Source: Pseudolactococcus piscium (lineage in GTDB: Bacteria; Bacillota; Bacilli; Lactobacillales; Streptococcaceae). From it: a stretch of DNA of 64,000 nt. Made by a program: the position numbers and the translations under genes. The stretch covers positions 1 through 64,000 of the forward strand of contig NZ_JXJW01000014.1 in NCBI RefSeq assembly GCF_002441695.1. Direction: 5' to 3'. The notes under the pieces are model-generated. The model had not been told where the DNA came from. It saw only the letters and a list, made by a program, of their open reading frames with translations, and did not search any database. Of the stretch, positions 22,989 to 64,000 are shown piece after piece (within the stretch, counting starts at the first letter, position 1; the number at the start of each line of letters is the position of its first letter).

Positions 22989-22999
22989 AATTTCCCCTT

Positions 23000-23806: not shown

Positions 23807-23816
23807 ACTATATAGT

Positions 23817-25160: not shown

Positions 25161-25197
25161 ATCTACATCACCTCCTTATCTGTGTTTTGTTTTGTAA

Positions 25198-25232: not shown

Positions 25233-25236
25233 CCTT

Positions 25237-25410: not shown

Positions 25411-25416
25411 GCTATG

Positions 25417-25962
25417 TTATCTACCAAGAATATACTTTATATCTTCTAAACTCCACTCGTTTTTATGACCATCTATTTTTTTCTTAAAGAGATCTTCTTT
25501 TCTTTCAATCATTTCATGATAACCATCTATACCAGGTCCCATTCCGTGACTATTTAGAGTTATTTCCCCAGATTTAAATAGTTTTCTTGTATCATGGAAT
25601 TTACCTTGATCTTTTATAAGAAATTTAGCATAAGAATATAATTTATATCCAATATCATCATTTGCATCAAACCCAGAAAAAGTTATTTGATAGCTGTCAA
25701 TACCATTCTTAATTTCATCATTTTGATTCCATTCATAGTATAAATCATCATAAAGATTTATAATTCTGTATACAAATTTACAGTCTTCTTTAGATAATGA
25801 ATCAGTATAAGGAACATGTTCAAAATATTCTCCTTCAAATCCCAGTTCATAGATCTCTTTTCTTTGACTATAATATTCTTTATCATTTTCGTCGTCAGAT
25901 AACTTTTCAAGTAAATCGTATTGATTGGCCAATACTTGTCTTTCAAATAAAGATAATTCCAT
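25417..25962 (-). CDS. YfbU-family protein
   Basis: 181-aa cytoplasmic protein matching YfbU from E. coli along its length: MELSLFERQVLANQYDLLEKL at the start, ELGFEGEYFEHV, ITFSGFDANDDIGYKLYSYAKFLI in the middle and SHGMGPGIDGYHEMIERKEDL near the end. Biochemical function is not established for the family; it has been linked to cell death or persistence in E. coli. Here it heads a two-gene unit in a prophage-derived island. Confidence 0.85.
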   Translation of the reverse strand: MELSLFERQVLANQYDLLEKLSDDENDKEYYSQRKEIYELGFEGEYFEHVPYTDSLSKEDCKFVYRIINLYDDLYYEWNQNDEIKNGIDSYQITFSGFDANDDIGYKLYSYAKFLIKDQGKFHDTRKLFKSGEITLNSHGMGPGIDGYHEMIERKEDLFKKKIDGHKNEWSLEDIKYILGR

Positions 25963-26118
25963 GAAGTTTCTCTCCTTTTTTGAGAATCAAAATACTCTTA
26001 CAAAACAATGCAAATAGACAACCCATAAACAATTAAAAAAAAATTATTTACTATCTTTATTATACCACACAAAAAAGCAATACCTGATAACTCAAAAAAT
26101 GTCCATTCTGTTTTTCAT

Positions 26119-26889
26119 TCATTTTTTTGTTTCTATTTCTAACATTTGTATATATTTTATACCTCGATCGTTCAACTCGTATCGCTCATATGATGGGATG
26201 TAATGATTATAATTTTGCAAACTGATATTTTCGCCTGGAACTTCTTCCTTGTTAATTAATGACATTTCATACCATTTAGAAATATAAAGTTCATTCATTA
26301 CTTTGCCATATAAATCATGACTTATTGTGCTTGAATGTTCTAATAATCTATCTTTGGAAAGGATCAACATTTGAGATGCAGTTAGTTTTTCTTCTGTTAT
26401 AGCAGTAACTTTTTCTACTATTTGTTTATCAGAATCAAAACTTATATTATCGGGGCTACTTGGATCTTGCTCTTTCAAAGATTCTTTTATTTTTTCAACT
26501 TCTAAATATATATCTGGTATAATCAAAGGATTGTCTGAAAGTTTGCTTTTCACATATTCAAAGCTGTATTGTCCTATAAATGCATCCTTTACTTCATTGA
26601 TTTCTTTTTGCATTTTAATTACTTCATCTTGTCTTAATACTAATTGTGAAGACAGTTGTTTATTTTCTTCATTCAAAATATCTAATTTATTTAAGTTGCT
26701 ACCCTTAATCCACCCCTCCAAAGTCTTTTCATTTCTTTTTATGACTCTATTAATAGATTTCAACACTTCTGCTTCTATTTGATCTATATTATCAATTTGA
26801 GAAACTATTTTGCCCATTATCTCTTTTTTAAATTCAATAAATTTTGGGTTGCTAGTTTCCAAGTCAGTAGCTTTTATTTCACCAGACAA
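26119..26889 (-). CDS. Unrecognised coiled-coil protein
   Basis: 256 aa, very rich in Glu/Lys. A long heptad-like region from about residue 60 to 110 (KLDILNEENKQLSSQLVLRQDEVIKMQ...) predicts a coiled coil; the C-terminal 60 residues look globular. No family recognised. The start is uncertain: the longest frame begins at TTG 26889 without a ribosome site and just after a -35/-10 pair (TTGACT...TATATA). An ATG at 26817 with AGAG upstream is an alternative giving 232 aa. Confidence 0.55.
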   Translation of the reverse strand: MSGEIKATDLETSNPKFIEFKKEIMGKIVSQIDNIDQIEAEVLKSINRVIKRNEKTLEGWIKGSNLNKLDILNEENKQLSSQLVLRQDEVIKMQKEINEVKDAFIGQYSFEYVKSKLSDNPLIIPDIYLEVEKIKESLKEQDPSSPDNISFDSDKQIVEKVTAITEEKLTASQMLILSKDRLLEHSSTISHDLYGKVMNELYISKWYEMSLINKEEVPGENISLQNYNHYIPSYERYELNDRGIKYIQMLEIETKK

Positions 26890-26948
26890 CTATATAATAA
26901 CATATTGATAGTAGTCAACACTTTTATCATTTTTTAATTATCTGCAAT

Positions 26949-27356
26949 TTAAATACATAATAATAGACTATCAGCATCTTTGACATGTGACGCTGTTTGA
27001 ATCACGTGCCAAGAACTCTTATCAAATAATTTAATTTGTTTAATCGTTGCTCCAGAAGTCCGACACCCTGTTACCAATATATCGCATTTGTATCTATTTG
27101 CAAGAACTCCAGCGCTAATAATATTCCACATATGATCACCATAAGATGAAATTAGAACTAATTCTCCTGTACTGATTTTTTTAAAAATCGAAAAAAAAGA
27201 GCGACCTCTCGGTTTTATAATTTTCATGGATTTACTCATAGTAAATACATCTTTTACTAATTTATAGTCGCTATGTGTTTTTATTTCATAATACAATAGT
27301 TGGATCGTACTAATTCTGTCACTTAAGTTTTTGCCTTCCAGAGCAATAATACGCAT
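26949..27356 (-). CDS. Unrecognised 135-aa protein
   Basis: MRIIALEGKNLSDRISTIQLLYYEI at the start resembles the first strand and helix of nucleotide kinases but lacks a P-loop lysine/serine pattern. The middle has ELVLISSYGDHMWNIISAGVLA and CDILVTGCRTSGATIKQI, an alternating alpha/beta pattern. The start at 27356 is fixed by AGGAG six to seven bases upstream; a longer frame has none. Function unknown; a degenerate P-loop-like fold is one reading. Same strand and AT-rich composition as its neighbours. Confidence 0.6.
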   Translation of the reverse strand: MRIIALEGKNLSDRISTIQLLYYEIKTHSDYKLVKDVFTMSKSMKIIKPRGRSFFSIFKKISTGELVLISSYGDHMWNIISAGVLANRYKCDILVTGCRTSGATIKQIKLFDKSSWHVIQTASHVKDADSLLLCI

Positions 27357-27437
27357 ATAGAGTCTCCTATTTATGTTTGTATAAAAAGTTACTACATAAA
27401 ATATATAGTAACACAAAAAATTCCTCACATCACTTTA

Positions 27438-28181
27438 TCAGAAAAGTCTTTTATTGAATATATGATTCACTTTTGATTTTTTGAATATTTGTGGATTTTG
27501 ATTCAAAAGCTGTTTAATAATTTTTGCTGAAATTTCACTTTCATTAAACAGTTCACTGCTATTTACTTTTTGCTTTCCCCAATCTGTTTGATTATAAAAA
27601 TCGTTTATAACATTAAAATGTTCTATTATATTTCTGCAAGGATCCAAACGTTGATCAATCACAGTAGAATACTTTAGTATATTTTCAAATTTATTATTTT
27701 CTTTTGTAAAGACCTCACTCATTTCAAATATGGCATCACCATAGCCACCAATCCATTTATGTTTTTTTACATACGTTATATTATTTTCATCTTTTGAAAT
27801 AATATAAATATTTTTTAGTTCTAAATTTTCTTTTTTGGGCAAACAAAATTCAAATAATTTATCTGATTTCAAATATGAAACTATTTCACTTCTAAAATAT
27901 TGCTCTACCCCATTTATGTTTGTTTCCAATAAAATACAGGTATACGGTGAAAATTCTCCACTAATGTACTCAATACTAAAGTTGAAATAATACACTTCTA
28001 CATCTCTAATTTTTATTAGTTTGGCATCCTCTTTTCTATATTTGGCCATATTTGAACTTCTTAATGATTCTCTTCTGTGTTTTTTATCAAAAAACATTTG
28101 AACTACAACAAATAATACGGCTAGTAGCGTACCTATTCCACTAACCCAATCTGCTATGCTCCCTAACTCTAGTGTAACCAT
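27438..28181 (-). CDS. Unrecognised single-pass membrane protein
   Basis: 247 aa. One helix at residues about 14-32 (SGIGTLLAVLFVVVQMFF) followed by a basic stretch (DKKHRRESLRSSNM), which predicts the bulk in the cytoplasm. The remaining 200 residues are mixed alpha/beta without a recognised motif. AGGAAATT precedes the ATG. It is 17 bases downstream of the next membrane gene on the same strand, so the two probably form an operon. Confidence 0.6.
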   Translation of the reverse strand: MVTLELGSIADWVSGIGTLLAVLFVVVQMFFDKKHRRESLRSSNMAKYRKEDAKLIKIRDVEVYYFNFSIEYISGEFSPYTCILLETNINGVEQYFRSEIVSYLKSDKLFEFCLPKKENLELKNIYIISKDENNITYVKKHKWIGGYGDAIFEMSEVFTKENNKFENILKYSTVIDQRLDPCRNIIEHFNVINDFYNQTDWGKQKVNSSELFNESEISAKIIKQLLNQNPQIFKKSKVNHIFNKRLF

Positions 28182-28198
28182 TAATGTAATTTCCTATC

Positions 28199-28786
28199 TT
28201 ATAAACTGATATCGAAACGGGATTTTTTTAATCTGTCCCATGCCAATTTATTAGCGTCCTCTGTTTTTTCAAAGACATATTGTTCGATATTTCCGTTGGG
28301 CCATTTTACAAAATGCGCCCCATCAACACCTTCTCCGTTTGTATAAAAAACTTCAAGTCCATTTAACAGCCTGCATGCTATATCTACATGTAGAATATTG
28401 GCGTAATATTTTTGCAATCCATGCATTTCATTAGGAAATAAAATTGCTTTTTCAACACTTTGTTCACCTGACTCTTTATAGTATAATATTCCGTCTAAAT
28501 CTCGAATTGGTAAACTTTCTTTCAACGAATTGAAAAAAAGTGACTCTACTTTGATACTGAAATACGGTAAATATTCCCTATCTTGTTCTTCTTTAGCATT
28601 TTTATGCTCTCTATCAATCTGATACTTAGCTACAAAATAGGCAATCAATCCAGATGGAATTATACCAAGATAACTACCCCAAAAACTAAGCCAATCTCCC
28701 TTGCCACTTGGGACAGGTAACCAATATTCAACTAATAAAGGTGCGACAATGCATGCAAATAACAATAATATGTACAATTTTTTCAT
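28199..28786 (-). CDS. Unrecognised two-helix membrane protein
   Basis: 195 aa. Helices at about 3-20 (LYILLLFACIVAPLLVEY) and 34-54 (FWGSYLGIIPSGLIAYFVA), then a charged linker (KYQIDREHKNAKEEQDREY) and a soluble domain ending KLAWDRLKKSRFDISL. Architecture parallels its downstream partner: membrane anchor, charged linker, cytoplasmic domain. The ATG at 28786 lies six bases after TGGTATAAT and has no Shine-Dalgarno, so the operon mRNA is probably leaderless. A longer in-frame start would lie upstream of the promoter. Confidence 0.6.
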   Translation of the reverse strand: MKKLYILLLFACIVAPLLVEYWLPVPSGKGDWLSFWGSYLGIIPSGLIAYFVAKYQIDREHKNAKEEQDREYLPYFSIKVESLFFNSLKESLPIRDLDGILYYKESGEQSVEKAILFPNEMHGLQKYYANILHVDIACRLLNGLEVFYTNGEGVDGAHFVKWPNGNIEQYVFEKTEDANKLAWDRLKKSRFDISL

Positions 28787-28792
28787 ATAGAT

Positions 28793-28801
28793 ATTATACC
28801 A
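28793..28801 (-). promoter_or_regulatory. Extended -10 promoter at a start codon
   Basis: TGGTATAAT on the minus strand with six bases to the ATG at 28786, the same geometry as at udk. Confidence 0.6.
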
Positions 28802-28885
28802 TATAGCAAAAAGCAACCACTGATTTAACAGTTAGCTGCCTTTGTCTTTATTTCCATAATACTGAGCGTTTATCTTGTTAAGAAA

Positions 28886-29605
28886 TTAACCACGATAATC
28901 TAATTTGGATCCGTTAATCAAATTAGTGATAACTACATTGTTCATAATTGTTTTGGTGAGTGCAATTCCATTAGACATTTGATGTCCTTCCGTTACCGCA
29001 TCTACTTGACCTTGTCCATTAAGAACGCTATAGATGCCGCGACTCAAATTAAACAAAACAAAAGTTCCATTTTTTATATATTGATTAACATCTCCACCAC
29101 TACATTGTGCAATAAACATTTTTAAATCTCCTTTTTCCTTTTTGTCTTCATTTGAATTTCCGTCTTGCGGGTTACCAGAACTATTAGTTCTGCCTTTGCC
29201 ATCAAAATTAATGACACTCCTTGGATTTACACGTTGCCACTGTGCGCCTTGCCACACTTCAAAATGTAAGTGTACGCCAGTTGCTAATCCGGTTTTACCC
29301 ATGATGCCCAAAATGCTATTAGCATTCACTTTTTCACCAACAGCAACGTTAACTGAACTAAAATGACCGTAGTAAGTCCAATATCCATCATCATGTTGTA
29401 CTATGACATAATTGCCACCCTGCGAGTGGTATGTAACAGTCGTTACTGTCCCTGCACGTGCTGCGTAAATGGGCGGGTTGCCTCCTGCAGTTGGAGCCAC
29501 ATCAATACCGCCATGTATCTGACCTGGCGTCCCCCACCCTTCTTGGTCCCATTCTTGTGTTACTTGATAAGAAATATCAAGCGGGCACAACCAACTATCT
29601 ACCAT
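28886..29605 (-). CDS. Phage-type M23 peptidase lysin
   Basis: 239 aa, no signal peptide, which suits a phage endolysin or tail-associated enzyme rather than a secreted host enzyme. The LytM/M23 zinc site is complete: HGGIDVAPT near residue 31, then YYGHFSSVNV and VHLHFEVWQG near 115. After a Gly/Asn/Ser linker (residues about 140-160) comes a separate 80-aa domain (MFIAQCSGGDVNQYI...), probably for wall binding. The zinc-site motifs and reading frame look intact, unlike the GH25 lysin 4 kb away. Confidence 0.82.
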   Translation of the reverse strand: MVDSWLCPLDISYQVTQEWDQEGWGTPGQIHGGIDVAPTAGGNPPIYAARAGTVTTVTYHSQGGNYVIVQHDDGYWTYYGHFSSVNVAVGEKVNANSILGIMGKTGLATGVHLHFEVWQGAQWQRVNPRSVINFDGKGRTNSSGNPQDGNSNEDKKEKGDLKMFIAQCSGGDVNQYIKNGTFVLFNLSRGIYSVLNGQGQVDAVTEGHQMSNGIALTKTIMNNVVITNLINGSKLDYRG

Positions 29606-30358
29606 ATTAATTCCTCCTTATTTTTTTAATCAGCTCTAGCAAATCCGTCAATCTGCCAACTGACCCACCTAATATACAGCTGTATTTTTTAGGAACGACT
29701 TCATGCTGGAATCGAACCAACAATAATTTCACCAACCACTTTGAAGCCTATAATTGCGTGCAGATGTCATTTCAACAACCGCTATGAATCATGTGTTAAA
29801 TATTTTTGTAGTAGTTAAAGTTGGATACTTATCCACCAGTTTCATAATCCTATTTTATCAACTATTTCCATTTACTTATCCGACGTTTATCCGATAGTCA
29901 TATCAGACCATATGCGGATGCAAATTGCAAGAGAGCACTGTTTAAATAATCATTATATCTGATTTAGGGAAATTCATTTCTGATGGATACCTATAGTGAT
30001 CATCAAAAGAATTGACTCCCATTATGCTTTAATTACATCTATTTAAGTAGTAACCAGTTTGCTACTAAACATAAATTAACATTTTTTATTTAATATTCGT
30101 CAATATGTACTCCTTGATCCTGAATGAAGGATGCGCAGCCACGTATCTTGTTATTCTTTCATTCTCATACACTACTACCACTTTAAAGATACTGCCAAAC
30201 AAATTGATATCTTTTTTAACTTGATATATAGTAATATGTTTATTGCTCATGATGTAAGAACGCCATATACAGTTTAAGTTAGGCTTATAAAATTATTGTA
30301 TCATTTTTATATTTAAAGCAACCGTGATATACTTATCCTAACTAATAGGAGGATTTCA
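29606..30358. other. 750-base stretch without a supported gene
   Basis: AT-rich DNA between the lysin and the YjbR-like gene. Many stops in all frames. The minus strand contains GTTGGTTCGATTCCAGC (about 29709-29725), a perfect tRNA T-arm shape, but no acceptor, D or anticodon arms fit around it. Probably decayed phage DNA. Confidence 0.4.
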
Positions 30359-30700
30359 ATGACTCGTAAAGAATTAATCCAATTGCTACTTCACGAAACA
30401 GACTCATATGAAGATTATCCGTTTAATAAAAATAAACGTGAAAAAACTTTATGGACTGTAATCAAACAGAAAAGCACGCATAAAATGATTGCGCTAATCT
30501 TCGAAAAAAATGGTCAGCTGATGATAGATTTGAAGCTTAAACCAGAACACGGTGATGAAGTTAGAATTTATGATGGTGTCTTCCCAGGTTACCACATGAA
30601 CAAAACACATTGGAATACAGTCGTTGTAAACAATACAAATCTTCCTTATGACGGACTCATCAAGATGATTGAAGAAAGTAATATGTTAACTACAAAATAA
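30359..30700 (+). CDS. MmcQ/YjbR-family DNA-binding-fold protein
   Basis: 113 aa, close to the family length. TRKELIQLLLHE, FEKNGQLMIDLKLKPEHGDEVR, the conserved HWNTVVVNN and DGLIKMIEESNMLT near the end match the YjbR (CyaY-like fold) family. The molecular role of the family is unproven. AGGAGG stands nine bases before the ATG. It is on the plus strand, opposite to the phage-derived genes, just inside the right 22-bp repeat. Confidence 0.8.
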   Translation: MTRKELIQLLLHETDSYEDYPFNKNKREKTLWTVIKQKSTHKMIALIFEKNGQLMIDLKLKPEHGDEVRIYDGVFPGYHMNKTHWNTVVVNNTNLPYDGLIKMIEESNMLTTK

Positions 30701-30784
30701 TGACACATCCAATCAATAAGATCTATTTAAGTTAAAGTAAAGGAACTTATCCTAAAATAAACAAATAGAAAGCGAGATGAAATT

Positions 30785-31144
30785 ATGATTGAAGAACCAA
30801 AAAATGAAGAATCGAATGGCACATTAATAAGTAACATTGAAGGTAGGAAAGATGACAAAAAAATAACGACGTGGTCAAAAACAAAAACATGGTACAAAAA
30901 AGTTAATAAAAAAATAGTTTTATTTTCTGCTGGCTTTTTCGTACTAGGTAGCTTTTCAACATTTTTAATTAGCCATACTATAAATCACTCTCAAAGATTC
31001 GAAAGAGCTAGTCTGTACAGACATGGTATAGACAGGTATGGTATAGACAGGCATGGTATGGACAGACATAGTATGGACAGACCGAAAAGAAATCACAAAT
31101 TTCATAAGGAAAATAGCAATAAAGAGCGTAATAATTTTGATTAA
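30785..31144 (+). CDS. Membrane protein with a pentapeptide tandem repeat
   Basis: 119 aa. A charged N-terminal half (about 50 residues) precedes one hydrophobic helix (IVLFSAGFFVLGSFSTFLI), then a very basic tail with four copies of a five-residue unit, RHGID-RYGID-RHGMD-RHSMD. The tail has many His and Arg, so metal or nucleic-acid contact is possible. GAAAGCGAG precedes the ATG. No family recognised. A terminator-like hairpin of opposite orientation follows. Confidence 0.55.
   Translation: MIEEPKNEESNGTLISNIEGRKDDKKITTWSKTKTWYKKVNKKIVLFSAGFFVLGSFSTFLISHTINHSQRFERASLYRHGIDRYGIDRHGMDRHSMDRPKRNHKFHKENSNKERNNFD
31019..31078 (+). repeat. Four 15-bp tandem repeats inside the membrane-protein gene
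   Basis: Units AGACATGGTATAGAC, AGGTATGGTATAGAC, AGGCATGGTATGGAC and AGACATAGTATGGAC are in frame, each giving R-(H/Y)-(G/S)-(I/M)-D. A repeat of this kind can change copy number by slippage without a frameshift. Confidence 0.8.
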
Positions 31145-31152
31145 ACATCTAT

Positions 31153-31184
31153 AAAAAAAAGCACACAGTTAATAAACCGTGTGC
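31153..31184 (-). terminator. Terminator-like hairpin of minus orientation
   Basis: GCACACGGTT and AACTGTGTGC pair and are followed by eight Ts on the minus strand. The nearest minus-strand gene upstream is far to the right, so this may be a relic or serve the plus-strand gene weakly. Confidence 0.55.
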
Positions 31185-31208
31185 TCAGACCGCAGACAGT
31201 GAAACATG

Positions 31209-31230
31209 ACCCTTATTTTATAAGGGTTTT
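31209..31230 (+). repeat. Candidate att core, right copy (terminator palindrome)
   Basis: Exact copy of the 22 bases at 22158-22179 in the same orientation, followed by TTTTGTTTTTT and so still able to act as a terminator. It marks the right edge of the AT-rich phage-debris island. Confidence 0.45.
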
Positions 31231-31478
31231 GTTTTTTACTGCCAATAGAAAACAATACTTTCTAAAGAAATTGGGCACAAGCAAAGCATAAAATGAAAAA
31301 TTTTGCTTTATTATCTGGTATCTTTTTTCTGATTTTTACCATATTGTTGTTCATAGCTACTCAGCCATAATTAAATGATGTCAAGCGCTCACGCGCTTTT
31401 TTCATCTATTTTTTTCAATATAACCTACTAATGATGCGAAATAAGCTAACAAAAAATAACCTGACTATGATTGACACT

Positions 31479-31507
31479 TTGACATCTTTTAAAAATCATG
31501 TTATCAT
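31479..31507 (+). promoter_or_regulatory. Promoter of the CaCA exchanger leader
   Basis: TTGACA (31479-31484) and TATCAT (31502-31507) with exactly 17 bp spacing; transcription should start near 31514, about 105 bases before the gene. Confidence 0.65.
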
Positions 31508-31533
31508 GGATTAAATTGATATAAACAAAGGTT

Positions 31534-31599
31534 GGGCTGTGGCTTCAAGGTTTATTCTTCTTAGGGCAGGAAGAATACTTGAAGTCACGCCCTTTTTTT
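31534..31599 (+). promoter_or_regulatory. Long leader hairpin with T-run before the CaCA gene
   Basis: A 59-base stretch folds into one hairpin of about 25 pairs: GGGC/GCCC at the base, CTTCAAG/CTTGAAG in the middle, TATTCTTC/GAAGAATA at the top, loop TTAGGGCAG. Seven Ts follow. As placed, between promoter and start codon, it would end transcription unless something remodels it. It does not match the yybP-ykoY manganese element or other leaders known to me. Confidence 0.65.
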
Positions 31600-31618
31600 A
31601 TGAAAGGTATTCCTACTT

Positions 31619-53809: not shown

Positions 53810-54802
53810 TTAATTCTGTAAGAAATAAATGAGGAGTGCTAGGATGGATCCGATTAAGGAGATACTCCAAAAGAAACTATCTACTCGCCATTCAGACCAA
53901 GGCTTACCTTTTCCTGAAAACCCACCTAGTTCAAAGTGATGATGTACAGGTGTCATCCGAAAAATGCGTTTGCCATGTGTCAGTTTAAAATACGAGACTT
54001 GCAACATGACACTAACAGTTTCAAATACATAAACAATCCCAATCAGTAGCAAGGTCCATTCCACATTTAAAAGAATTGAAATCGTACCTAAAACACCACC
54101 AAGTGCCAAGCTACCAACATCTCCCATAAAAATCTTTGCAGGTTTATGATTGAATAAAAAGAAAGCAAGTAAACTGCCAATAATGGCAAGTATGACAAGT
54201 AAGATATCAAACTGCTGTTGATGAATGGCTATGATCGCATAGGCAATCAAAGAAATAACGACAGACATGGTAGCTAAGCCATCAATACCATCTGTTAAAT
54301 TTACTGCATTTGAAAAACCAACCAACCAAAAGACTAAGAAGACCATAAAGAACACGCCTAGTTCAATCTGATAGCCAAAGACATTCAATAAATTATCGCC
54401 AGCTTCATGCACATAGATAAGATAGGCAATGATACCAGTGATGATTTGTGCGACTAGTTTTTGTAAACTGGTCAGCCCTTGATTTATCTGCTTGAAAATC
54501 TTTAAAAAATCATCTAAGAAACCAACAATCGCAAACATGGCAAAGACAAACCAGAGGATCATAAAATCGGCCGTTAATAAGCCAGAAACAAGCGCAAAAA
54601 GCAAAGCAATCACTAAACTAACTGTGACAAAAACGACGCCTCCCATGGTTGGGGTACCAGCTTTTGCAGCATGTTGCTTAACATCTTCATGCATCTGTTG
54701 ACCACCAATTTTTGCTTTGTGGTAAAAACGGATAAAAGATGGAATAGTGAACAAGGTGACAATAAATGCCACAACTCCTGCAATAAGTGAGTAAAATATC
54801 AT
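53810..54802 (-). CDS. mraY: Phospho-N-acetylmuramoyl-pentapeptide-transferase
   Basis: Makes lipid I by moving phospho-MurNAc-pentapeptide to undecaprenyl phosphate. 330 aa, about ten helices. [13 protein letters not shown], the Asp-rich [35 protein letters not shown] and the [12 protein letters not shown] loop are all present. Last gene of rsmH-ftsL-pbpX-mraY, followed by a terminator. Confidence 0.97.
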
Positions 54803-54913
54803 AGTTAATTTCCGTTAATTGTATCTGCCAACCTCAATAAAGCGATATTAAATGACTTGATTCAGCATAAATTGAATAACTGTCCAACCTATCGAGTCAA
54901 TTTAATACATCAT

Positions 54914-57211
54914 TTATTTGAGTGTGACCGTCAATTTTTTCCCTTTCTTGATTGCCTCATTCATTTCGATGCTTTGCTTAGTAGCTTTACCATCCTCAGC
55001 ACCATCATAAGTAACCGTCAATCCAGCCCATTTGGCCAGTATGTCAATATCTTGTTTAGACCAGTCATAAATATCAGGCATGGTTAATTTGCCATTAGTC
55101 AGTAGCAAAATTCGCTTGTTTGCACCGAGTTTTGTTCCCGGTTCAATAGACTGTTTGGTAATCACTGAACCGCTACCAATGACGACTGGCTGTAAAAGCT
55201 GTTGTCTAAGTAAATCGAGGGTATTACCTGGATTTTTACCTTCATAATTTGCTAAAGTAACCTTCGTTTCATTGCTAGTCTTGCTGATCGATTTATTCGA
55301 TGTTGCATCGATCGTAGCTTTTGAATCATAGGCACGTTCTAATAAAGGATTAGCTACATTAGAAATAAAATTTAAACTCCAATGATCCGGTAAGGTAACC
55401 GTCATATAAAAAATATAATCCGGATTTACAGATGGCACCATGGCAACAGCAGAATAGAGATAAGCTGTGGTTCCTACATGGTAACCACCTTTTGGATCCG
55501 GTACTTGGGCAGTCCCTGTTTTAACTGAGACATCTTTACCAGCAACACGGAAATATGGTTGATTGGTACCCCAATCATATGCCGTACCATTGATATTATC
55601 TGTCCCAACATTAACCATATATTTTAAAACAGAGTCAGCTGTTGTCTTACTAACAGGCTTACCAATAATTTCTGGTGCTGAAATACGCTGTGTACTATCA
55701 TCAGTATTGACTATTTTTGAAATGAAATGAGGTTCCAACATGGTACCGCCATTTGCTATAGCAGAATATCCACGTAACATCTGAGTCCCTGTCACAGAAA
55801 TACCTTGACCAAAAGATGAGTTGACTTGAGATACGATATTATCGTCGGGTAATTTACCAAAGCCTTCACCACCAACACCCATTCGTGTCGGGATACCAAA
55901 TCTAAAGCGATTAAGGTAGTTGTCCCAAGTTTTATCGCCCATTGCTATCTGTAGTTTTGACATCCCTACATTTGACGAATGAGCGAACCCTTGTGCATAG
56001 GTCAAACTCAATCCACCAGGATGTGTTTCTTTATCCCAGTCAGCAATCGGTGTATCACCAACTGATATCGGTGCTGAAGAATAAGTCGCATTTGCATTAA
56101 AAGTACCATTTTCGATGGCAGCAGCCATGGTAAAGAGTTTAAAGGTTGAGCCTGGTTCAAAACTAGATTGATACAGCAGATTACTTTGATTGTTTAGATT
56201 TTGTTTATCTGAAATAGTCGTATCTTTGGGCCCAATCACTTTTTGTGTAGATGGATCAAAAGTCGGTCTTTGTGTGGTCGCAAGTATCTCACCTGTATCT
56301 GCTTTAACTAAGGTCGCAACAACTTCTGTAGCAGTAAAGTTTTGAAGTGAGGTATCGACTAAAGTTTCCAAATAAGATTGTAAGCTTGAATCCAGTGTCG
56401 TATAGACATCTTGACCATCTTTTGCGGGTGTTACGGATTTTGCAATCCCTTTTAAAGTTTGGCCATCCTTATTTTTTTCTAAAGTTTCAACACCATTTTT
56501 TCCGGATAAGGTACTATCTAATGATGCCTCAATCCCAAATTGTCCGATCAGGCCTTTGGTATCATCATCACCATCTTTAAGGCCAGCAAGTCCTATAAAA
56601 TTAGAGGCGAAGTTACCAGTGTAGGAGCGGGCAAGGTGTGAGGTAAAGCCAATCCCTGCTATCCCTTTGTCTTTGGCCTCTTTCTCGATTTGTTCTTTTA
56701 GTGTAAATGAAATATGCTTACCTTTTGTGCCAAATTCAACCTGACTTGCTTTAGGTATATTTAATTGACCTCTTGTATAACTCTCATCTATACCGAGCTT
56801 TTCTTTAAATATAGCAGCAACTTTACCAAAATCTTCACTACTCGCATATAATTTCTTACCTGCTGCCGAAACATATGTTTTATCTAAGATAACATAGATA
56901 GAGTAATCACTAGAGTCGGTCGCTATAGCGGCGCCTTCTCTATCAAAAATAGTGCCACGCTTTGCATAAATCGTTGTCGTTTCAGAATAATTTGATTTAG
57001 CAAGGGGAGATAATTTCACCCCATTACTGGAATCTGTTACAATGATCCATGAAAATCTAACGATAAAAACCGTAAACACAAGGAGAGCGAGAAAAAGAAT
57101 ATCCTGTGCAATCCGTTTACGGTTCTCTTGTGGGCTTAAACGCGTCTTACCCGCATTTATTGCAACTTTTCTAAAGGGAAAGGTTGCAATGTTTTTTAAT
57201 ATTTTTATCAT
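54914..57211 (-). CDS. pbpX: Penicillin-binding protein 2X
   Basis: Septal transpeptidase working with FtsW. 765 aa. Short cytoplasmic start, one helix (ILFLALLVFTVFIVRFSWIIV), a pedestal domain beginning KRGTIFDREGAAIATDSSDYSIY, then the transpeptidase with SxxK in EPGSTFKLF, SxN in HSSNVGM and SVKTGTAQ. Two PASTA-like domains at the C-terminus (from about residue 650 and 710: KLGANKRILLL, MPDIYDWSKQDI). Adjacent to ftsL with no gap. Confidence 0.96.
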   Translation of the reverse strand: MIKILKNIATFPFRKVAINAGKTRLSPQENRKRIAQDILFLALLVFTVFIVRFSWIIVTDSSNGVKLSPLAKSNYSETTTIYAKRGTIFDREGAAIATDSSDYSIYVILDKTYVSAAGKKLYASSEDFGKVAAIFKEKLGIDESYTRGQLNIPKASQVEFGTKGKHISFTLKEQIEKEAKDKGIAGIGFTSHLARSYTGNFASNFIGLAGLKDGDDDTKGLIGQFGIEASLDSTLSGKNGVETLEKNKDGQTLKGIAKSVTPAKDGQDVYTTLDSSLQSYLETLVDTSLQNFTATEVVATLVKADTGEILATTQRPTFDPSTQKVIGPKDTTISDKQNLNNQSNLLYQSSFEPGSTFKLFTMAAAIENGTFNANATYSSAPISVGDTPIADWDKETHPGGLSLTYAQGFAHSSNVGMSKLQIAMGDKTWDNYLNRFRFGIPTRMGVGGEGFGKLPDDNIVSQVNSSFGQGISVTGTQMLRGYSAIANGGTMLEPHFISKIVNTDDSTQRISAPEIIGKPVSKTTADSVLKYMVNVGTDNINGTAYDWGTNQPYFRVAGKDVSVKTGTAQVPDPKGGYHVGTTAYLYSAVAMVPSVNPDYIFYMTVTLPDHWSLNFISNVANPLLERAYDSKATIDATSNKSISKTSNETKVTLANYEGKNPGNTLDLLRQQLLQPVVIGSGSVITKQSIEPGTKLGANKRILLLTNGKLTMPDIYDWSKQDIDILAKWAGLTVTYDGAEDGKATKQSIEMNEAIKKGKKLTVTLK

Positions 57212-57592
57212 TTATTTTATTGCCTTCATTACATTTTCCGGAATTGATTTAATTCCATTATCATTTGCTTGTTTGATGACACGTTCTTTACCCATCAACT
57301 CATCTATTTTTTGATCATAAGTTTTAAGCTGTGTTTCCTTGGTTGTCACTTCTGTTTGCGTATCTAGCGTATTTTGCTCAACTTCGATAATTTTTGTTCG
57401 AACATAAACCATCCCAATTGATAGCACAATGACTGAAAAAATAATAGAAAGGTAGAAACATTTTTCAACAATGGTCAAGTTTCGAAACTTACTTTTAAAA
57501 ATATCTGGTGCAATAGAATCTGCCGAAATATTGTAACTACCATTTTGATTAGCTGTTTTAATATCGAAATACTCTTTTGGTTTTGCTGCCAT
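57212..57592 (-). CDS. ftsL: Cell division protein FtsL
   Basis: 126-aa bitopic divisome protein. Basic cytoplasmic part, one helix (CFYLSIIFSVIVLSIGMVYV) and an outside coiled coil (IIEVEQNTLDTQTEVTTKETQLKTYDQKIDEL). Stop codon directly abuts the pbpX start. Identified mostly by position and topology, as FtsL sequences diverge. Confidence 0.9.
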   Translation of the reverse strand: MAAKPKEYFDIKTANQNGSYNISADSIAPDIFKSKFRNLTIVEKCFYLSIIFSVIVLSIGMVYVRTKIIEVEQNTLDTQTEVTTKETQLKTYDQKIDELMGKERVIKQANDNGIKSIPENVMKAIK

Positions 57593-57684
57593 GTTTTCTT
57601 ACCTTTCTATTTTGATGCTACCTAACTGGGTTGCTAAGGCTATCTAGGCCTTAACTTTCGTCAAGTACCTCACACCTACTCTTT

Positions 57685-58632
57685 TTAATTTTTTTGGGCC
57701 ACTCTAAGTTTAGCTGAATGTGCCCGATTATTAACTGCTAATTCTTCGTCGGAAGCCAAGACTGGTTTGCGATTTACCAAAGTCAGTAGTGGCAACATAT
57801 CATCAGGTATCATCGGTAACCCTCTTGGAATATCAACGTTTGCATACTCTTTAAATAAAGATTTTGTTAACTTATCTTCTAAAGAATGGAAAGTAATGAC
57901 TGAAATCCTGCCACCCTGATTTAGCATGTGGATAGCAGTTTCAATCGATTCTGCAGCAGCGCCAAGCTCATCATTTACTTCTATTCTAATCGCCTGGAAA
58001 ATACGTTTTGCCGGATGACCTTTTTTCTTTAATTCTTTTTGGGGTAAAGCTGATTTAATTAATTCAGCTAATTCTAAAGTGGTATTGATTGGCTGAACTT
58101 CTCTTGCTTTTTCAATTTTTCTAGCGATCTGCTTAGAAAATTTTTCCTCACCGTAGCGACTAAAAATACGCATCAGATCATTAAAAGCATAAGTATTGAC
58201 AACATCATGTGCAGTCAATTCTTGAGACTGATCCATCCGCATATCTAATCTTGCATCTTTTCGATAAGAAAAACCACGTTGACTATCGTCAAATTGCGGG
58301 CTAGATACCCCTAAATCATAGAGGATACCATCAAATCCTGTGACATCTAGGGCTGCAAGTGCCTCCCGAAGATGTCTAAAATTATTTTTTATCAGTGTGA
58401 CACGGTTCGCGTCGAGTTGTGATTTTAATTTTACTTTTGCATTTTCATGTGCTGTTTCATCCTGATCAAAGGCATATAGATGGCCTGTTGTCAGCTTACT
58501 TAGTAAATACTCACTATGTCCTGCGCCACCAAGCGTCGCATCTATATAAATGCCATCTGGTTTGACTTCTAGCATATCAACGGTTTCATGAAGCAGAACG
58601 GTATCATGCTTAAAAGTTATTTGATGTGGCAT
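57685..58632 (-). CDS. rsmH: 16S rRNA (cytosine-1402 N4) methyltransferase
   Basis: Methylates C1402 in the ribosomal decoding centre. 315 aa. [34 protein letters not shown] with SAM motif, [31 protein letters not shown], and [20 protein letters not shown] are signatures. First gene of the dcw unit; its promoter at 58688-58696 overlaps the T-tract of the proA terminator. Confidence 0.97.
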
Positions 58633-58687
58633 ATAGGCTCACTTTCTAAAGGTAGGGGACAGTAATTAGTTAATACAAACACCTTTT

Positions 58688-58696
58688 ATTATAACA
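58688..58696 (-). promoter_or_regulatory. Extended -10 promoter of the rsmH operon
   Basis: TGTTATAAT on the minus strand, about 55 bases before the rsmH ATG; overlaps the end of the upstream terminator. Confidence 0.55.
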
Positions 58697-58725
58697 AAAA
58701 AATCTAGTAATTTCTAGATTTTTAA
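58694..58725 (-). terminator. Terminator of the proline/FemAB operon
   Basis: AAAAATCTAG and CTAGATTTTT arms around AAATTA with a T-run on the minus strand. Confidence 0.75.
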
Positions 58726-58788
58726 GGAAATGTAATATTTGATTGATATAGTGATCTAGTTGACTGCCAAATTTATAAGGCGATTTAT

Positions 58789-60030
58789 TTACCCTCGGGT
58801 TTGACCTGTCCCATTGATCAAGTATTTATAAGACGTTAATGCTTCTAGTCCCATCGGTCCTCTAGCATGGAGTTTCTGTGTCGAAATACCAATTTCTGCA
58901 CCAAATCCAAAGGCAAAGCCATCCGTAAATCGTGTTGAGGCATTGACATAAACTGCTGCTGCATCGATCTGTGCTTGAAACTGCTCCGCATGTGCAATAT
59001 TATCAGTGATGATACTCTCAGAATGTTTTGTACCGTAGTGATTAATATGGGCGATGGCTTGATCAAGATCAGACACAACTTTTACTGACATAGTATAATC
59101 CAGATATTCTGTCGAAAAATCTGCATCCGTCGCAGGTGTTCCAGTCATTAGGTTTATGGCAATGTCATCTAGACGGAAATCAACTGGCTGTACTGCATCA
59201 ATAGCTTTCTGGAGTTTTGGTAAAAACGCAGCAGCAACCTTTTCATGGACAACTAAACTCTCTGCCGCGTTACAAACACTTGGTCTTTGTACTTTAGCGT
59301 TAATGACGATTTTCGTCGCCATATCCAGATCAGCAAATTCATCAACATAGATACTAACATTTCCACTACCAGTTTCGATGATTGGGACGCGAGACTGTTC
59401 TTTAATCGTCCGGATTAAGCCAGCCCCTCCTCTTGGAATCAGGACATCTAAATACTCAGTCGCAAGCATCATTTGTCTTGCCACTTCATGACTGGTATCC
59501 GTCACCAAACCAACCGCATGTTCCGTAATTCCTTGTGCAACTAAAGTCGCTTTGATGACGGTAACGAGTGCCTTATTTGAATTTATCGCATCTTTACCCC
59601 CACGTAAAATGACGGCATTATTGGTTTTAAAACAGAGTGAAAAGGCATCTATCGTGACATTTGGCCGGCTTTCAAAAATCATGCCGATGACGCCGATCGG
59701 TACGCGCGTTTGTAGCACTTTCAAACCATCAAGATTTGTGAACCCCGTCATCACTTGACCGACAGGATCTGCTAATGTCGCAACCTGTCTAATTCCTTCT
59801 GCCATGTCAAGAATACGCTCAGCAGTTAGTCTGAGTCGATCAACCATGATGTCATTCACACCATTATCCTGGGCATGCGCTAAATCTTTGGCATTTTCAA
59901 GGACGATAAAGTCAGTTTCCGCAATCAGGGCTTGGGCCAATGCGTGAAGTAAGGCATTTTTTTCAAGTGTCGAGAGTTTTGCTAGTTCAAATGCTGCTGT
60001 TTTAGCGTGTTTTCCTAGAGTACCAATCAT
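58789..60030 (-). CDS. proA: Gamma-glutamyl phosphate reductase
   Basis: Second step of proline synthesis, giving glutamate-5-semialdehyde. 413 aa, standard. [32 protein letters not shown], catalytic Cys in [15 protein letters not shown] and [23 protein letters not shown] at the end. It is separated from proB by two FemAB genes on the same strand, and a terminator follows. Confidence 0.97.
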
Positions 60031-60044
60031 CTGTTTACCTCAAT

Positions 60045-61214
60045 CTATCTCATCTTTTTACGAAGTTTATAGGCAAGATCACTTAGCTTATAGAGTAAGC
60101 TGTTTACTGGAATGTTAAATTCTCCAGCATATTCTTCAATCGACGGGTTAAAATGTTTTTTAAACTTTAATAAGCCATCTGATGCTGCTAATGAATTTTC
60201 AAGTCCACCCATATTTAGGGTATCAGCCCCTTGCTCAAAGGCATGGTTAATCGCTTCATACCAAGCTAAATATGACGGATAATATTTTTGAAAGTCTGTA
60301 TCAGTTCCAGCATACAAGGTTTCTGCTGCCCCACCAAATGTAAGGGTCAGTGTGCCAGCAACAGGAACGATATTGCCACGTTCTTCAATAATAGCAGTCA
60401 ACTCTTTGATATTTTTATCAACTATCTCAAGGTCACTTGTTAATGCTTTTAACCGTTTTTCATTTTTAGCATTTGCTATATTATCCACTATTTTAGCATA
60501 GTTTTCTTTAGTTTCCGTCAATAATTGTCCGAAATCCATTTTAATCAGGTTAATAAAGGCTTCTTTCTGATAGACATCAAGTAATTTGGTATAATAGGTC
60601 GCATTTCTTAGGCTGACATTTTTACGAGATTCAGTTTTCTTCATTAATTCTGAAAACTCAGGAACTAAATCAGTCCCCCCTACTTCAGCCACTGGATGTG
60701 AATTGCGTGCTTTTCTCAAAAACTGGCGTGTTTTCTTGCTTAACGCTGCCTCTGAAAATCCCTCACGATGAATCACAGCATTGAACCGCGGCTGGATCGT
60801 ATCATGCATATCAGAGGTTAAGCCAGACCACTTGACACCCAAACTTTGTAGCGTTTCTATCAAGTCTTTTGCTTCTGACGCTAAAATTGCTGGATCAAAT
60901 TTGATAAAGAGGGCATGCTTTGATTTACCATATTTTTTAAGTTCTGAGATGACAAACTTAAGAAATGCCTTGTCAGCATAATCTAAAGCGATGCCTCTCG
61001 GGATATATAACATGGTAAAGCCAAGTGGTAAGGGTTTAATCAAAATGCTTACACTTGCTTTTAACTGCTGATTGTCGTAAAAGCCGATACGCTCATGCTG
61101 CCAGCCTTCTTTTATTTTTGCCCAACTTGCGGATTGTAACAAGTTCACCAAAGGTGATGTCACAACCAGTTGATCATGTTCAGCTGCTGATAAGCCGATT
61201 TTTACTGTATACAT
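60045..61214 (-). CDS. FemAB/MurN-type peptidoglycan bridge aminoacyltransferase (second)
   Basis: 389-aa FemABX enzyme adding an amino acid from aminoacyl-tRNA to the Lys side chain or bridge of lipid II. Two GNAT-like halves with a helical coiled-coil arm inserted at about 220-280 (ENYAKIVDNIANAKNEKRLKA). GTLTLTFGGAAETLYAGTDTDFQKYYPSYLAWYEAI and NMGGLENSLAASDGLLKFKKHFNPSIEEYAGEF are typical. Start at 61214 follows GGAG; the longer frame lacks a site. It lies 15 bases before proA. Confidence 0.88.
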   Translation of the reverse strand: MYTVKIGLSAAEHDQLVVTSPLVNLLQSASWAKIKEGWQHERIGFYDNQQLKASVSILIKPLPLGFTMLYIPRGIALDYADKAFLKFVISELKKYGKSKHALFIKFDPAILASEAKDLIETLQSLGVKWSGLTSDMHDTIQPRFNAVIHREGFSEAALSKKTRQFLRKARNSHPVAEVGGTDLVPEFSELMKKTESRKNVSLRNATYYTKLLDVYQKEAFINLIKMDFGQLLTETKENYAKIVDNIANAKNEKRLKALTSDLEIVDKNIKELTAIIEERGNIVPVAGTLTLTFGGAAETLYAGTDTDFQKYYPSYLAWYEAINHAFEQGADTLNMGGLENSLAASDGLLKFKKHFNPSIEEYAGEFNIPVNSLLYKLSDLAYKLRKKMR

Positions 61215-61327
61215 ACTAACTCCTATATGACTAATGCATGGATAATGATTCGCTCCTATGATTAATCGCCAACACATGAATTGATTCGGGACTAAGAGCT
61301 AATCAATCAACTTGTGGTCAATTTATC

Positions 61328-62545
61328 TTATCTTGCAATAATTTTTTTTAACGCTTCTGTTATCTTGTTTATAAGTGGTTTAATGACTAATTCATAGTTG
61401 CCAGATGATTGCCAAATATAGCCCTTAAAATTTTGCTTAAATTTCAAGACGCCTTGGTCAGGATTATCGGGTGCATTGACGCCCATGAAATTATACTGGT
61501 CGATTTGATGCGCATAGGCATATTTTAACATATAATCTTGAATCAAAAAAGGCGCTGAAAATTCTCTAAATTCATCATACATACCACTAAACATATAAAT
61601 GACTTCATTAGGCATCACGAAAAACTGGGCAGCTGAGAGGATAACGTCCTGATCACCATAAATGCCAACAAACTTACTTAATTCTTCATGCAACTTTTCA
61701 AGGCGTGATACTCTTTGTCCAAGTGTATCCAAACTTTTGAGCTTATTTTGTTCTTGAGCTTTCCTAATTTCAGCCTGAATATTATCAAGCTCAATTTGAT
61801 TCGCTCTTAGCTCTGAATTGAAATTCAATTTAGCTAAAATGAACTTGACGCGATCACCATATGCTTGATGCACTGCCTCATAATAAGAAAGATCTCTAGT
61901 CGCAAATTTCCGTCTTTCACCTGCTTCATCGACAACTTTTTTAAAATCACTTAACTCGTCAAAACGAGCTTCATAAACTTTAATGCCTAATTTGCGTGCT
62001 TTTTTGATGGTCTGTAACCCATTTTTTTTATATGATTTTTCAACTTTAGCAAAACTTTCATAACCGCTCAAGTCTTTACTATAGTTATAGTTAAACCCTT
62101 TTTCAAACTCGCTTAATTGGATTTGTTTGAGCCCTAATTCTTGATAAAAGTCAGCTAAGGCTTGATTTAACTCAGCTGTTTTTTCCCAATTATCATCATA
62201 TGTCCTTTGTACAACATTCGAGTGAACCACTAATTTTAAAACACCTTGCTTTTTAAGTACTTTTTTTAGTCCAGAGATTAGGACTTGGTTAGTCACATGA
62301 TCCTCTGAAAAATAAGGATTCCCATGTGCCTCAGCTAAATAACCAAACTTAACCTTTGCAAGCGTCACTAAGATAGCTGCAACTAGCTTATCCTGGTTTT
62401 TCACTGCAAAATAATAAGCCTGATGCCCCAAAGCAGTCTGTAACTCCCCAAAATTTTTGGTTTGTTGGAAATGCATATCATCTCGTTTGTCGACAAATAA
62501 CTCAAATTCAGCCGCGCTTACTGCTACAAATTGCCTACTGTCCAA
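61328..62545 (-). CDS. FemAB/MurM-type peptidoglycan bridge aminoacyltransferase (first)
   Basis: 405-aa FemABX enzyme, paralogue of the downstream gene. KNFGELQTALGHQAYYFAVKN, a long coiled-coil arm (about 240-290), ILSAAQFFVMPNEVIYMFSGMYDEFREFSAPFLIQDYMLKYA and NFMGVNAPDNPDQGVLKFKQNFKGYIWQ. It starts at a TTG overlapping the proB stop by 11 bases, with AAGGGGA eight bases upstream, so it is translationally tied to proB. Two such enzymes in series imply a two-residue bridge. Confidence 0.88.
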   Translation of the reverse strand: MDSRQFVAVSAAEFELFVDKRDDMHFQQTKNFGELQTALGHQAYYFAVKNQDKLVAAILVTLAKVKFGYLAEAHGNPYFSEDHVTNQVLISGLKKVLKKQGVLKLVVHSNVVQRTYDDNWEKTAELNQALADFYQELGLKQIQLSEFEKGFNYNYSKDLSGYESFAKVEKSYKKNGLQTIKKARKLGIKVYEARFDELSDFKKVVDEAGERRKFATRDLSYYEAVHQAYGDRVKFILAKLNFNSELRANQIELDNIQAEIRKAQEQNKLKSLDTLGQRVSRLEKLHEELSKFVGIYGDQDVILSAAQFFVMPNEVIYMFSGMYDEFREFSAPFLIQDYMLKYAYAHQIDQYNFMGVNAPDNPDQGVLKFKQNFKGYIWQSSGNYELVIKPLINKITEALKKIIAR

Positions 62546-63335
62546 AATATGTCCCCTTCTTCTTAGCTTCTAGGATATCTCTTATTTCCCAAATTCTGGC
62601 ACCATTTGTCAAGACCATCTGTTTTTTAGCACCAAAAATTAATTTAGCAGCTTCGAGCTTACTGGTCATCCCACCAGTCCCAAAGCGACTGCCAGCACCG
62701 CCAGCAGCTTTCATCAAGTGATCTGTAATCTCAGATACTGTTTCGATTAAACTAGCATCATCAAATATGGTCGGGTTTTTATCATATAGGCCATCTATAT
62801 CAGACAACATGATCAAGAGATCCGCATCTGATAGGGTCGTTACGATTGCCCCTAATCGGTCATTATCACCAAATTTAGTCTTGTGGTCCATCTCATCTAC
62901 ACTGACGGCATCATTTTCATTAATGATAGGAATAATGCCTAAGCTTAGTGTCGCATTAAGTGCATCACTGGCATTTTTACGGCTTTCTGGAAATTCAATC
63001 ACATCATTTGTTAACAATAACTGTGATATCTTCTGCTGATAGCGTGCGAAGGTATGCTTATACAAGCTCATCAATTCAACCTGACCAATGGCAGCCAAGG
63101 CTTGTTGTTGTGCCATTTCTGCTGGACGTTTGTCTAAGCCCAGTACATTTAGGCCAACACCAATAGCGCCCGAGGTAACCAGAATAATCTCATAGCCTTC
63201 GTGTTGCAGGCTTGAGAGCATAAAAGCAAGTTCATCGATATTTTTTAGATTTATTTTTCCGTTAGCCAAAATAAGACTTGATGTCCCAATTTTTATCACA
63301 ATTCTTTTGGCAGTTTTTAATTTTTCTCGGTTCAT
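62535..63335 (-). CDS. proB: Glutamate 5-kinase
   Basis: First step of proline synthesis. 266 aa, the short form without a PUA domain. KRIVIKIGTSSLI, EIILVTSGAIGVGLNVLGLDKRP, NENDAVSVDEMDHKTKFGDNDRLGAIV and GSRFGTGGMTSKLEAAKL are diagnostic. Starts three bases after the recN stop and its end overlaps a FemAB gene. Confidence 0.97.
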   Translation of the reverse strand: MNREKLKTAKRIVIKIGTSSLILANGKINLKNIDELAFMLSSLQHEGYEIILVTSGAIGVGLNVLGLDKRPAEMAQQQALAAIGQVELMSLYKHTFARYQQKISQLLLTNDVIEFPESRKNASDALNATLSLGIIPIINENDAVSVDEMDHKTKFGDNDRLGAIVTTLSDADLLIMLSDIDGLYDKNPTIFDDASLIETVSEITDHLMKAAGGAGSRFGTGGMTSKLEAAKLIFGAKKQMVLTNGARIWEIRDILEAKKKGTYFGQ

Positions 63336-63338
63336 TTT

Positions 63339-64000
63339 TTATTTTTCCAATAATTTTTCAGCTTGTGCAAGTGCTTCTGGTGTAATATCATCCCCAGCCA
63401 GCATTTTAGCAATTTCTGTTTTGCGTTGTGATCGGCTTAATTTACTAACAGTTGATGTTGTTCTATCAGCCGCTTGCTGCTTATCAATATGAAATTGAAC
63501 ATCCGCAATCGCAACAACTTGTGGCAAGTGAGAAATACAAAGCACCTGGCCACTTTGAGAAATCTTATGTATTTTATTTGCAATTGCTTGGGCAACACGA
63601 CCGGAAACCCCAGTATCTACTTCATCAAATACGATAGAGGTCTTATTCTCCCGTCTGGCAAAACTTGACTTAATGGCCAACATAATGCGACTTAATTCAC
63701 CACCGGACGCGGTTTTAGCTAATGGTTTAAAGCCTTCACCTGGATTCGTTTGAATGAAAAACTCGACATGTTGATTCCCATTTACAGAAAATTTGGCTGG
63801 TTCAAACATGACTTTAAAATCTGCTTTCTCCATGTAGAGATCAGCTAGCTCTAATTTAACATCTTCAACGACCTGCTCTGCCATGACAGCTCTCGCTTCA
63901 GCTAATTGTTTGGCATGGCTGATAAGGGATTGCTCTGCTGCTTTAAATGCAGTTTCTAGACTTTCTGATGAGTTATCATCTCCAGTTAAACGGGCTAATT
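63339..64000 (-). CDS. recN: DNA repair protein RecN, C-terminal part (runs off the window)
   Basis: SMC-like double-strand-break repair protein. The last 220 residues are present: end of the coiled coil, then KTASGGELSRIMLAIKSSF (ABC signature), IVFDEVDTGVSGRVAQAIA (Walker B and D-loop) and VLCISHLPQVVAIAD (switch His). The 5' part lies beyond base 64000. It appears to be the head, or near the head, of the recN-proB-femAB-femAB-proA transcript. Confidence 0.95.
   Translation of the reverse strand, partial: LARLTGDDNSSESLETAFKAAEQSLISHAKQLAEARAVMAEQVVEDVKLELADLYMEKADFKVMFEPAKFSVNGNQHVEFFIQTNPGEGFKPLAKTASGGELSRIMLAIKSSFARRENKTSIVFDEVDTGVSGRVAQAIANKIHKISQSGQVLCISHLPQVVAIADVQFHIDKQQAADRTTSTVSKLSRSQRKTEIAKMLAGDDITPEALAQAEKLLEK

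Follow-up and report, generated by a model that had tools for sequence, protein, structure and literature searches.

Apparent in-place exchange of a putative first-step peptidoglycan bridge ligase gene within the proB-proA interval of Pseudolactococcus

Introduction

Why should two genes for peptidoglycan bridge ligases of the FemABX family sit between proB and proA, the two proline synthesis genes, and what do they do there? The question is raised by a 64,000-nucleotide (nt) stretch of DNA from Pseudolactococcus piscium (L. piscium below), contig NZ_JXJW01000014.1, positions 1 to 64,000, referred to here as the window and to which all coordinates refer unless a locus is named. On its minus strand and in the order of transcription the locus reads recN, proB, fem1, fem2 and proA, followed by the wall and division genes rsmH, ftsL, pbpX and mraY. 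A first-pass annotation made from the letters alone had described the recN-proB-fem-fem-proA order, and had proposed that two ligases acting in series would build a bridge of L-amino acids on lysine and that joining bridge synthesis to proline synthesis could link osmotic stress to wall structure. We compared the window genome (G000, 2.4 Mb) with eleven other genomes of its genus (G001-G011), sampled as one genome per species, and with more distant relatives. With a probability that we put at about 0.72, fem2 encodes a first-step ligase that has been swapped between species by homologous recombination and acts as a switch between Ala and Thr as the first bridge residue, with fem1 adding a constant Ala.

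Results and Discussion

Within the genus fem2 exists in two deep classes that occupy the same slot. Class A is present in four genomes (G000, G002, G006 and G010) and class B in seven (G001, G003, G004, G005, G008, G009 and G011), with G007 carrying an intermediate version that is an A/B chimera. Protein identity amounts to 72-93% within class A and 78-95% within class B, versus 36-41% between the two. The seven flanking genes, which are 66-100% identical over the whole genus, do not follow this division, being 95-100% identical between G000 (class A) and G001 (class B), 95-98% between G002 (class A) and G005 (class B), and 92-98% between the chimeric G007 and G008 (class B). As can be seen when the window is set against G001, the median identity of 41 matched open reading frames (ORFs; at least 120 residues in the window and with a coverage above 0.9 in G001, a few of which overlap and are perhaps not genes) is 96.45%, with fem2 the lowest at 39.9% and fem1, which is less conserved than most of its neighbours, the second lowest at 86.4%. 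The fem2 protein of G006 is 93% identical to that of the window, and its fem1 matches only in pieces.

In the tree of the seven flanking genes the three pairs just named are sisters (G000/G001 with support of 99/98, G002/G005 and G007/G008 each with 100/100), and the distribution of fem2 classes on this tree involves four changes when the chimera is left aside and five when it is counted as A. The fem2 proteins themselves group otherwise: in a tree of 49 rows class A joins garvieae-type Lactococcus and class B joins the genus coded g6 and, deeper, genomes of genus g2, Streptococcus sobrinus and Streptococcus orisratti, both with high support, in a tree that has long branches, G007 among them, and on one deep join of which the tree program warns. 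In the fem1 tree the sister pairs persist, with G007/G008 placed beside the chungangensis clade (99/98), contrary to the flank tree, and for this reason fem1 may have been exchanged as well. Between the piscium and chungangensis clades class A proteins are 72-74% and class B proteins 79-80% identical, values near those of fem1 and several flanking genes, which makes the two versions appear roughly as ancient as the genus.

DNA identity along the sister pairs, measured in 100-base steps, locates the ends of the exchanged stretches, and these ends differ. Between G000 and G001 identity is at first 92-99%, drops to 81-88% (with a single step of 95%) some 200 bases past the beginning of fem1, is 39-60% in fem2, and returns through 84% in the last fem2 step to 89-97% in proA. 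The drop between G002 and G005 occurs only at the end of fem1, with recovery within the first part of proA, and that between G007 and G008 is confined to the inside of fem2. The corresponding lengths are approximately 2.2 kb, 1.3-1.6 kb and, within the gene, 0.8-0.9 kb; the direction of exchange in each pair is something that we infer rather than observe. The G007 protein is a natural chimera. Over its first 90 alignment columns (some 80 residues) it is 95-100% identical to class B G008. Columns 150-240 and 330-360 share 68-73% identity with the closest class A row versus 13-46% with class B, columns 240-330 are weakly nearer to A (39-53% versus 21-33%), and the final 30 columns once more resemble G008 most (86% versus 71% for A). 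Of 33 positions that discriminate 7 class A rows from 11 class B/T rows, 32 of which lie past residue 140, the chimera has the A residue at 25, the B residue at 3 and neither at 5. Judged from such comparisons fem2 would qualify as a mosaic gene, combining a sharp change in identity with conserved flanks and a gene tree in conflict with the species tree.

Another stretch of the window (18144-19912) holds two adjoining ORFs that are unusually divergent in G006 (83% and 78% identity); in G001 the first is 93% identical and the second 98% over half its length only. This is possibly another exchanged stretch.

Both ligases match the FemAB family profile PF02388 over its full length, fem2 with 357.4 bits (profile positions 1-406) and fem1 with 259.2 bits (2-406), at a cut-off of 24. 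The window fem2 lies nearest to Staphylococcus aureus FemX (6snr, 5e-35, versus 4.3e-23 for FemA) and matches Weissella viridescens FemX at 5.8e-17, while fem1 lies nearest to S. aureus FemA (1lrz, 2.6e-31, versus 2.7e-15 for FemX 6snr) and gave no match to Weissella FemX at 0.001. The AlphaFold model of the window fem2 has a predicted local distance difference test score (pLDDT) of 90.7, and its best Foldseek match in the PDB is again 6snr (E 3.3e-34, template modelling (TM) score 0.80), with 1lrz at a TM score of 0.79; the S. aureus and Weissella enzymes are thus of the same family and fold as those studied here. Against the NCBIfam equivalog for UDP-MurNAc-pentapeptide-lysine N6-alanyltransferase fem2 scores 96.2 bits, under the cut-off of 500, and we do not claim that it is that enzyme. 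In Streptococcus pneumoniae, as described in the excerpted text of PMC12632259, MurM adds Ala or Ser, after which MurN adds an invariant Ala, an arrangement that resembles the present one. The FemX-like nature of fem2 and the FemA-like nature of fem1, taken with this pneumococcal order, argue that fem2 would add the first residue and fem1 the outer Ala.

Published bridge types bear on what that first residue might be. The excerpted text of PMC12281737 gives Lys-Ala1-2 for L. piscium (type strain) and L. reticulitermitis, Lys-Ala2 for L. chungangensis, and Lys-Thr-Ala for L. laudensis, L. raffinolactis, L. hodotermopsidis, L. plantarum and P. yaeyamensis. G002 is L. chungangensis and G010 is L. 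reticulitermitis, so that an Ala bridge is found in each of the three class A species whose bridge has been published (the fourth class A genome, G006, stands outside this count). For several other genomes we infer the species name, in part from G+C content; G007 has 37.3-37.4% in sampled sequence, versus 36.8% published for L. plantarum. Papers give differing values for L. laudensis (41.1 or 38.69%) and L. raffinolactis (41.5 or 39.67%), and the fit of G001 and G006 (38.57 and 37.71% in sampled sequence, standard errors 0.29 and 0.46) to carnosus and paracarnosus (38.8 and 38.2% published) is weak. G003, G004, G005 and G009, putatively L. laudensis, L. raffinolactis, L. hodotermopsidis and L. 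insecticola in any order, all carry class B, and if these names hold class B coincides with Thr in three of four species, the bridges being three of Lys-Thr-Ala and one of Lys-Asp. The idea that two ligases act one after the other, building on lysine a bridge of one or two L-amino acids, is thus supported, both by the FemX- and FemA-like characters and by the published Lys-Ala1-2 of the host. The accompanying suggestion of a Ser/Thr-Ala-type bridge applies to several relatives, which have Lys-Thr-Ala, and not to this organism.

These observations can be assembled into a mechanism. Class A fem2 would place Ala on Lys to give Lys-Ala-Ala, in line with the Lys-Ala1-2 of L. piscium, and class B fem2 would place Thr on Lys to give Lys-Thr-Ala. 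Since fem1 would cap both bridge types with Ala, the transpeptidases would meet the same Ala amine as acceptor whichever fem2 is present. Flanks that are near-identical between sisters (proB with fem1 to the left, the fem2 tail with proA to the right) would allow homologous recombination to replace fem2 in place, whole or in part, and the bridge type would in this way have switched several times in the genus with the operon left intact. If fem1 were lost, only class A cells would still present an Ala amine, and the sole case of loss, in G006, is indeed class A, a single case and no proof.

A number of points weigh against this interpretation. In terms of family, a class B fem2 that was compared is nearly as close to FemA (3.7e-31) as to FemX (1.7e-32). 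The two-type scheme becomes less sharp outside the genus, where a profile split of 64 fem2-like ORFs gives 35 of type A and 29 of type T, with small profile margins for some, and where L128 and L129 are assigned to T and lie on the A side of the tree. The link between class B and Thr depends on genome identities that are themselves putative. For L. insecticola a Lys-Asp bridge is reported (PMC12281737, excerpted text), despite an open fem2 in all twelve genomes of the genus, and the genome that fits it best by G+C content, G004, is class B. A search with PF02655 for a D-Asp ligase that could explain this bridge matched 18 of 18 genomes and was uninformative, the six proteins examined further being two biotin carboxylases, a piece of pyruvate carboxylase, a D-Ala-D-Ala ligase-like protein, PurD and a neighbouring FtsW. 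Finally, G007, putatively L. plantarum, has a class A-like fem2 core and a published Lys-Thr-Ala bridge. An older value for L. plantarum is said to be Lys-Ser-Ala, a report of which our literature search did not find. The conflict stands unless the first part of the chimera sets the choice of amino acid or the Lys-Ser-Ala value is right.

Could two fem2 versions have come about without transfer, from an ancestor that had both side by side and of which each lineage lost one? Tandem runs of fem genes do occur in relatives (four genes in L. termiticola, three in L030), a genome of another genus (G035) carries an A-like and a T-like fem2, located on separate contigs (L117 and L118), and the apparent age of both classes would suit an ancestral pair. 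However, none of the twelve genomes of the genus was found to hold both versions, the third FemAB gene of G003 is fem1-like, and the spacing between fem2 and proA is 14 nt in seven of the twelve genomes, with both classes among these; moreover, the G007 chimera and the G000/G001 stretch that reaches into fem1 require recombination. We regard such differential loss of tandem paralogues as unlikely. Much less credible again is very fast divergence, under selection, of one vertically inherited gene whose two forms add the same amino acid. The lower conservation of fem1 would fit such a history, but A and B each join other genera in the tree, a 14-residue insert present in the class B proteins of the genus is absent from class A, and a single genus clade for fem2 is rejected by the approximately unbiased (AU) test (p-AU 1.35e-5, for a group that was picked after the identities were known and that includes the chimera). 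The trees and this test together speak against a single, vertically inherited and fast-evolving fem2, which we therefore reject.

The remaining alternative takes the gene order itself as the function, proB-fem-fem-proA being a module in which proline or osmotic control sets bridge synthesis. Inside the genus all 12 of the 12 genomes have recN-proB-fem1-fem2-proA-rsmH-ftsL-pbpX-mraY in this order and on a single strand (G006 with a decayed fem1), mostly with overlaps or gaps of a few bases, and the arrangement is therefore not a matter of chance. Outside it, by contrast, in all 13 of the 13 genomes for which both genes were found, proA is either separated from the fem2 homologue by more than 90 kb or located on a different contig, many of these assemblies being drafts. 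In five garvieae-type Lactococcus loci (L027, L028, L029, L037 and L106), whose fem2 is of the class A type like that of the window, and likewise in L036 of genus g2, fem2 lies directly upstream of rsmH-ftsL-pbpX-mraY and is not accompanied by proA; in two further g2 loci rsmH follows 1.3-2.1 kb past the fem genes. L. termiticola has proB adjoining its row of four fem genes and no proA beside them, and no rsmH was seen in the stretch examined; L. petauri and L. formosensis have two more fem genes about 5 kb upstream; and in the Streptococcus loci and several others the neighbour genes of the window were not found beside the fem genes. As fem2 adjoins the wall genes in other Streptococcaceae that have no proA at this place, the older partnership of fem appears to be with the wall-gene cluster, with proB and proA having come to flank it later, an order of events that we propose from these comparisons.

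Transcription signals do not favour the module either. Over 57500-64000 promoter and terminator scans returned 20 and 5 hits versus 20.2 and 4.6 expected by chance, and no Rfam family reached its gathering score in 40000-64000. In L. chungangensis and L. reticulitermitis a terminator-like hairpin lies between fem1 and fem2 (L025 7959-7981 and L026 7961-7979) and is directly followed by TATAAT, with the ATG of fem2 6 nt further on, which suggests that both species transcribe fem2 separately and almost without a leader. The link from proline synthesis or osmotic stress to the wall thus finds no support, and we consider it very improbable. In the garvieae-type loci a layout similar to that ahead of fem2 in these two species was seen by eye behind a tRNA-like sequence. 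A conserved terminator-promoter element as an import scar ahead of class A fem2 was considered and rejected, being present in L. chungangensis and L. reticulitermitis and missing from the window; class B G004 has a stretch of similar appearance that the scan did not call, and the import-scar idea was not used as evidence of origin.

Returning to exchange of fem2 by recombination, a wider reading may be offered, although we would sooner bet against it than on it. The two genus-old ligase versions would form a two-state polymorphism shared across species and moved by recombination anchored in proB/fem1 and proA, much as in serotype switching, and kept because enzymes that cleave the bridge, namely phage lysins and bacteriolysins, give the rarer type an advantage; the constant outer Ala from fem1 would leave the inner residue free to be swapped, with loss of fem1 tolerated only together with class A.

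The coordinates of the locus are collected in Table 1. The described order of recN, proB, two fem genes and proA is confirmed, as is the close packing, with fem1 overlapping proB by 11 nt when it starts at its TTG and fem2 ending 14 nt ahead of proA. The fem2 start at 61214 is a chosen one, the open frame extending to 61277. The fem1-fem2 spacer is far longer than in the class B sister genome G001, where it measures 17 nt. The NCBIfam scores of proB and proA exceed the model cut-offs, and one copy of each was found across the window genome, in which fem1 and fem2 are the only genes of the FemAB family. The pbpX product matches the PBP2X model NF038271 at 4.7e-261, yet scores under that model's cut-off of 1050 bits; the genes that we take to be ftsL and mraY are named from gene order.

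Table 1. Features of the proB-proA region and the adjoining wall and division genes in the window
Feature	Coordinates	Strand	Evidence
recN, 3' part (full frame of 555 residues, continuing beyond the window)	63339..64000	-	upstream neighbour of proB in 12/12 genus genomes
proB, glutamate 5-kinase, left anchor of the exchanged stretch	62535..63335	-	TIGR01027 4.3e-83
fem1, putative FemA/MurN-like second-step bridge ligase, 405 residues, TTG start	61328..62545	-	Pfam FemAB 8.1e-77
fem1-fem2 spacer, 113 nt, AGGAG ahead of the fem2 ATG	61215..61327	-	
fem2, putative FemX/MurM-like first-step bridge ligase, class A, 389 residues	60045..61214	-	Pfam FemAB 1.2e-106
fem2 3' end, alike in classes A and B, right edge of the exchanged stretch	60045..60135	-	DNA identity
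proA, glutamate-5-semialdehyde dehydrogenase, right anchor of the exchanged stretch	58789..60030	-	NF001221 9e-173
rsmH (mraW), first gene of the wall/division cluster	57685..58632	-	TIGR00006 1.6e-115
ftsL-pbpX-mraY, rest of the wall/division cluster	53810..57592	-	same order in 12/12 genus genomes

Two genomes of the genus depart from the simple pair of ligase genes. In G006 (locus L045) fem1 is a remnant within the 487 bp between proB and fem2, of which only N- and C-terminal pieces are left, in different frames. Pieces of at least 48 residues share 28-49% identity with known fem1 proteins, and short ones as much as 75%, with the proB and proA of this genome 99 and 97% identical to the window genes, and the lost fem1 may possibly have been a divergent version in its own right. 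G003 has, on another contig and away from the operon (L042 8519-9838), a third FemAB gene of 439 residues whose protein is 50-58% identical to fem1 proteins, and which may allow a longer or branched bridge.

At some distance from the locus, none of the ORFs of at least 120 residues in window positions 22300-31600 was matched in the syntenic stretches of G001 or G006, although both sides match. This stretch, in which a LysM protein (23825-24559) and an M23 peptidase (28886-29605) are encoded, may be a mobile or prophage-like insert that carries wall-cutting enzymes.

Conclusions

Enzymes and phenomena of this kind are familiar from other bacteria. The glycine chain of S. aureus requires FemX, FemA and FemB, unlike the present system, in which two enzymes serve a bridge of one or two residues. 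Bacteriolysin producers carry the FemABX-like immunity factors Zif, Lif and Epr, acquired ligases that alter the bridge and so block bridge-cutting enzymes; those are extra genes beside the lysin gene, whereas here the resident gene itself is exchanged, and a protective role of the exchange is offered here as a hypothesis. Mosaic murM genes are known from the pneumococcus. The nearest known case is that of the pneumococcal mosaic genes for penicillin-binding proteins (PBPs), built with pieces from relatives, and of the altered MurM of resistant strains (PMC12632259, excerpted text). Unlike in the pneumococcus, the versions share only about 40% identity and take each other's place in a single fixed slot flanked by proB and proA, between species and apparently with a change from Ala to Thr or the reverse. 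We know of no link between fem2 exchange in this genus and drug selection.

FemABX enzymes, mosaic PBP genes and altered MurM are thus already known; what is new, as far as we have searched, is a fixed slot in which first-step ligases of about 40% identity replace each other between sister species, with a chimera among them and in apparent agreement with a change of bridge. No study of fem gene exchange in this genus was found among the literature matches listed, which cover few subscription journals. The near-isogenic natural pairs, together with the natural chimera, provide material for finding what determines the choice between Ala and Thr in Fem ligases. Exchange of fem2 could explain why Lys-Ala and Lys-Thr-Ala bridges occur among close relatives, and peptidoglycan type, long used as a stable naming character in lactococci and streptococci, here apparently tracks one mobile gene.

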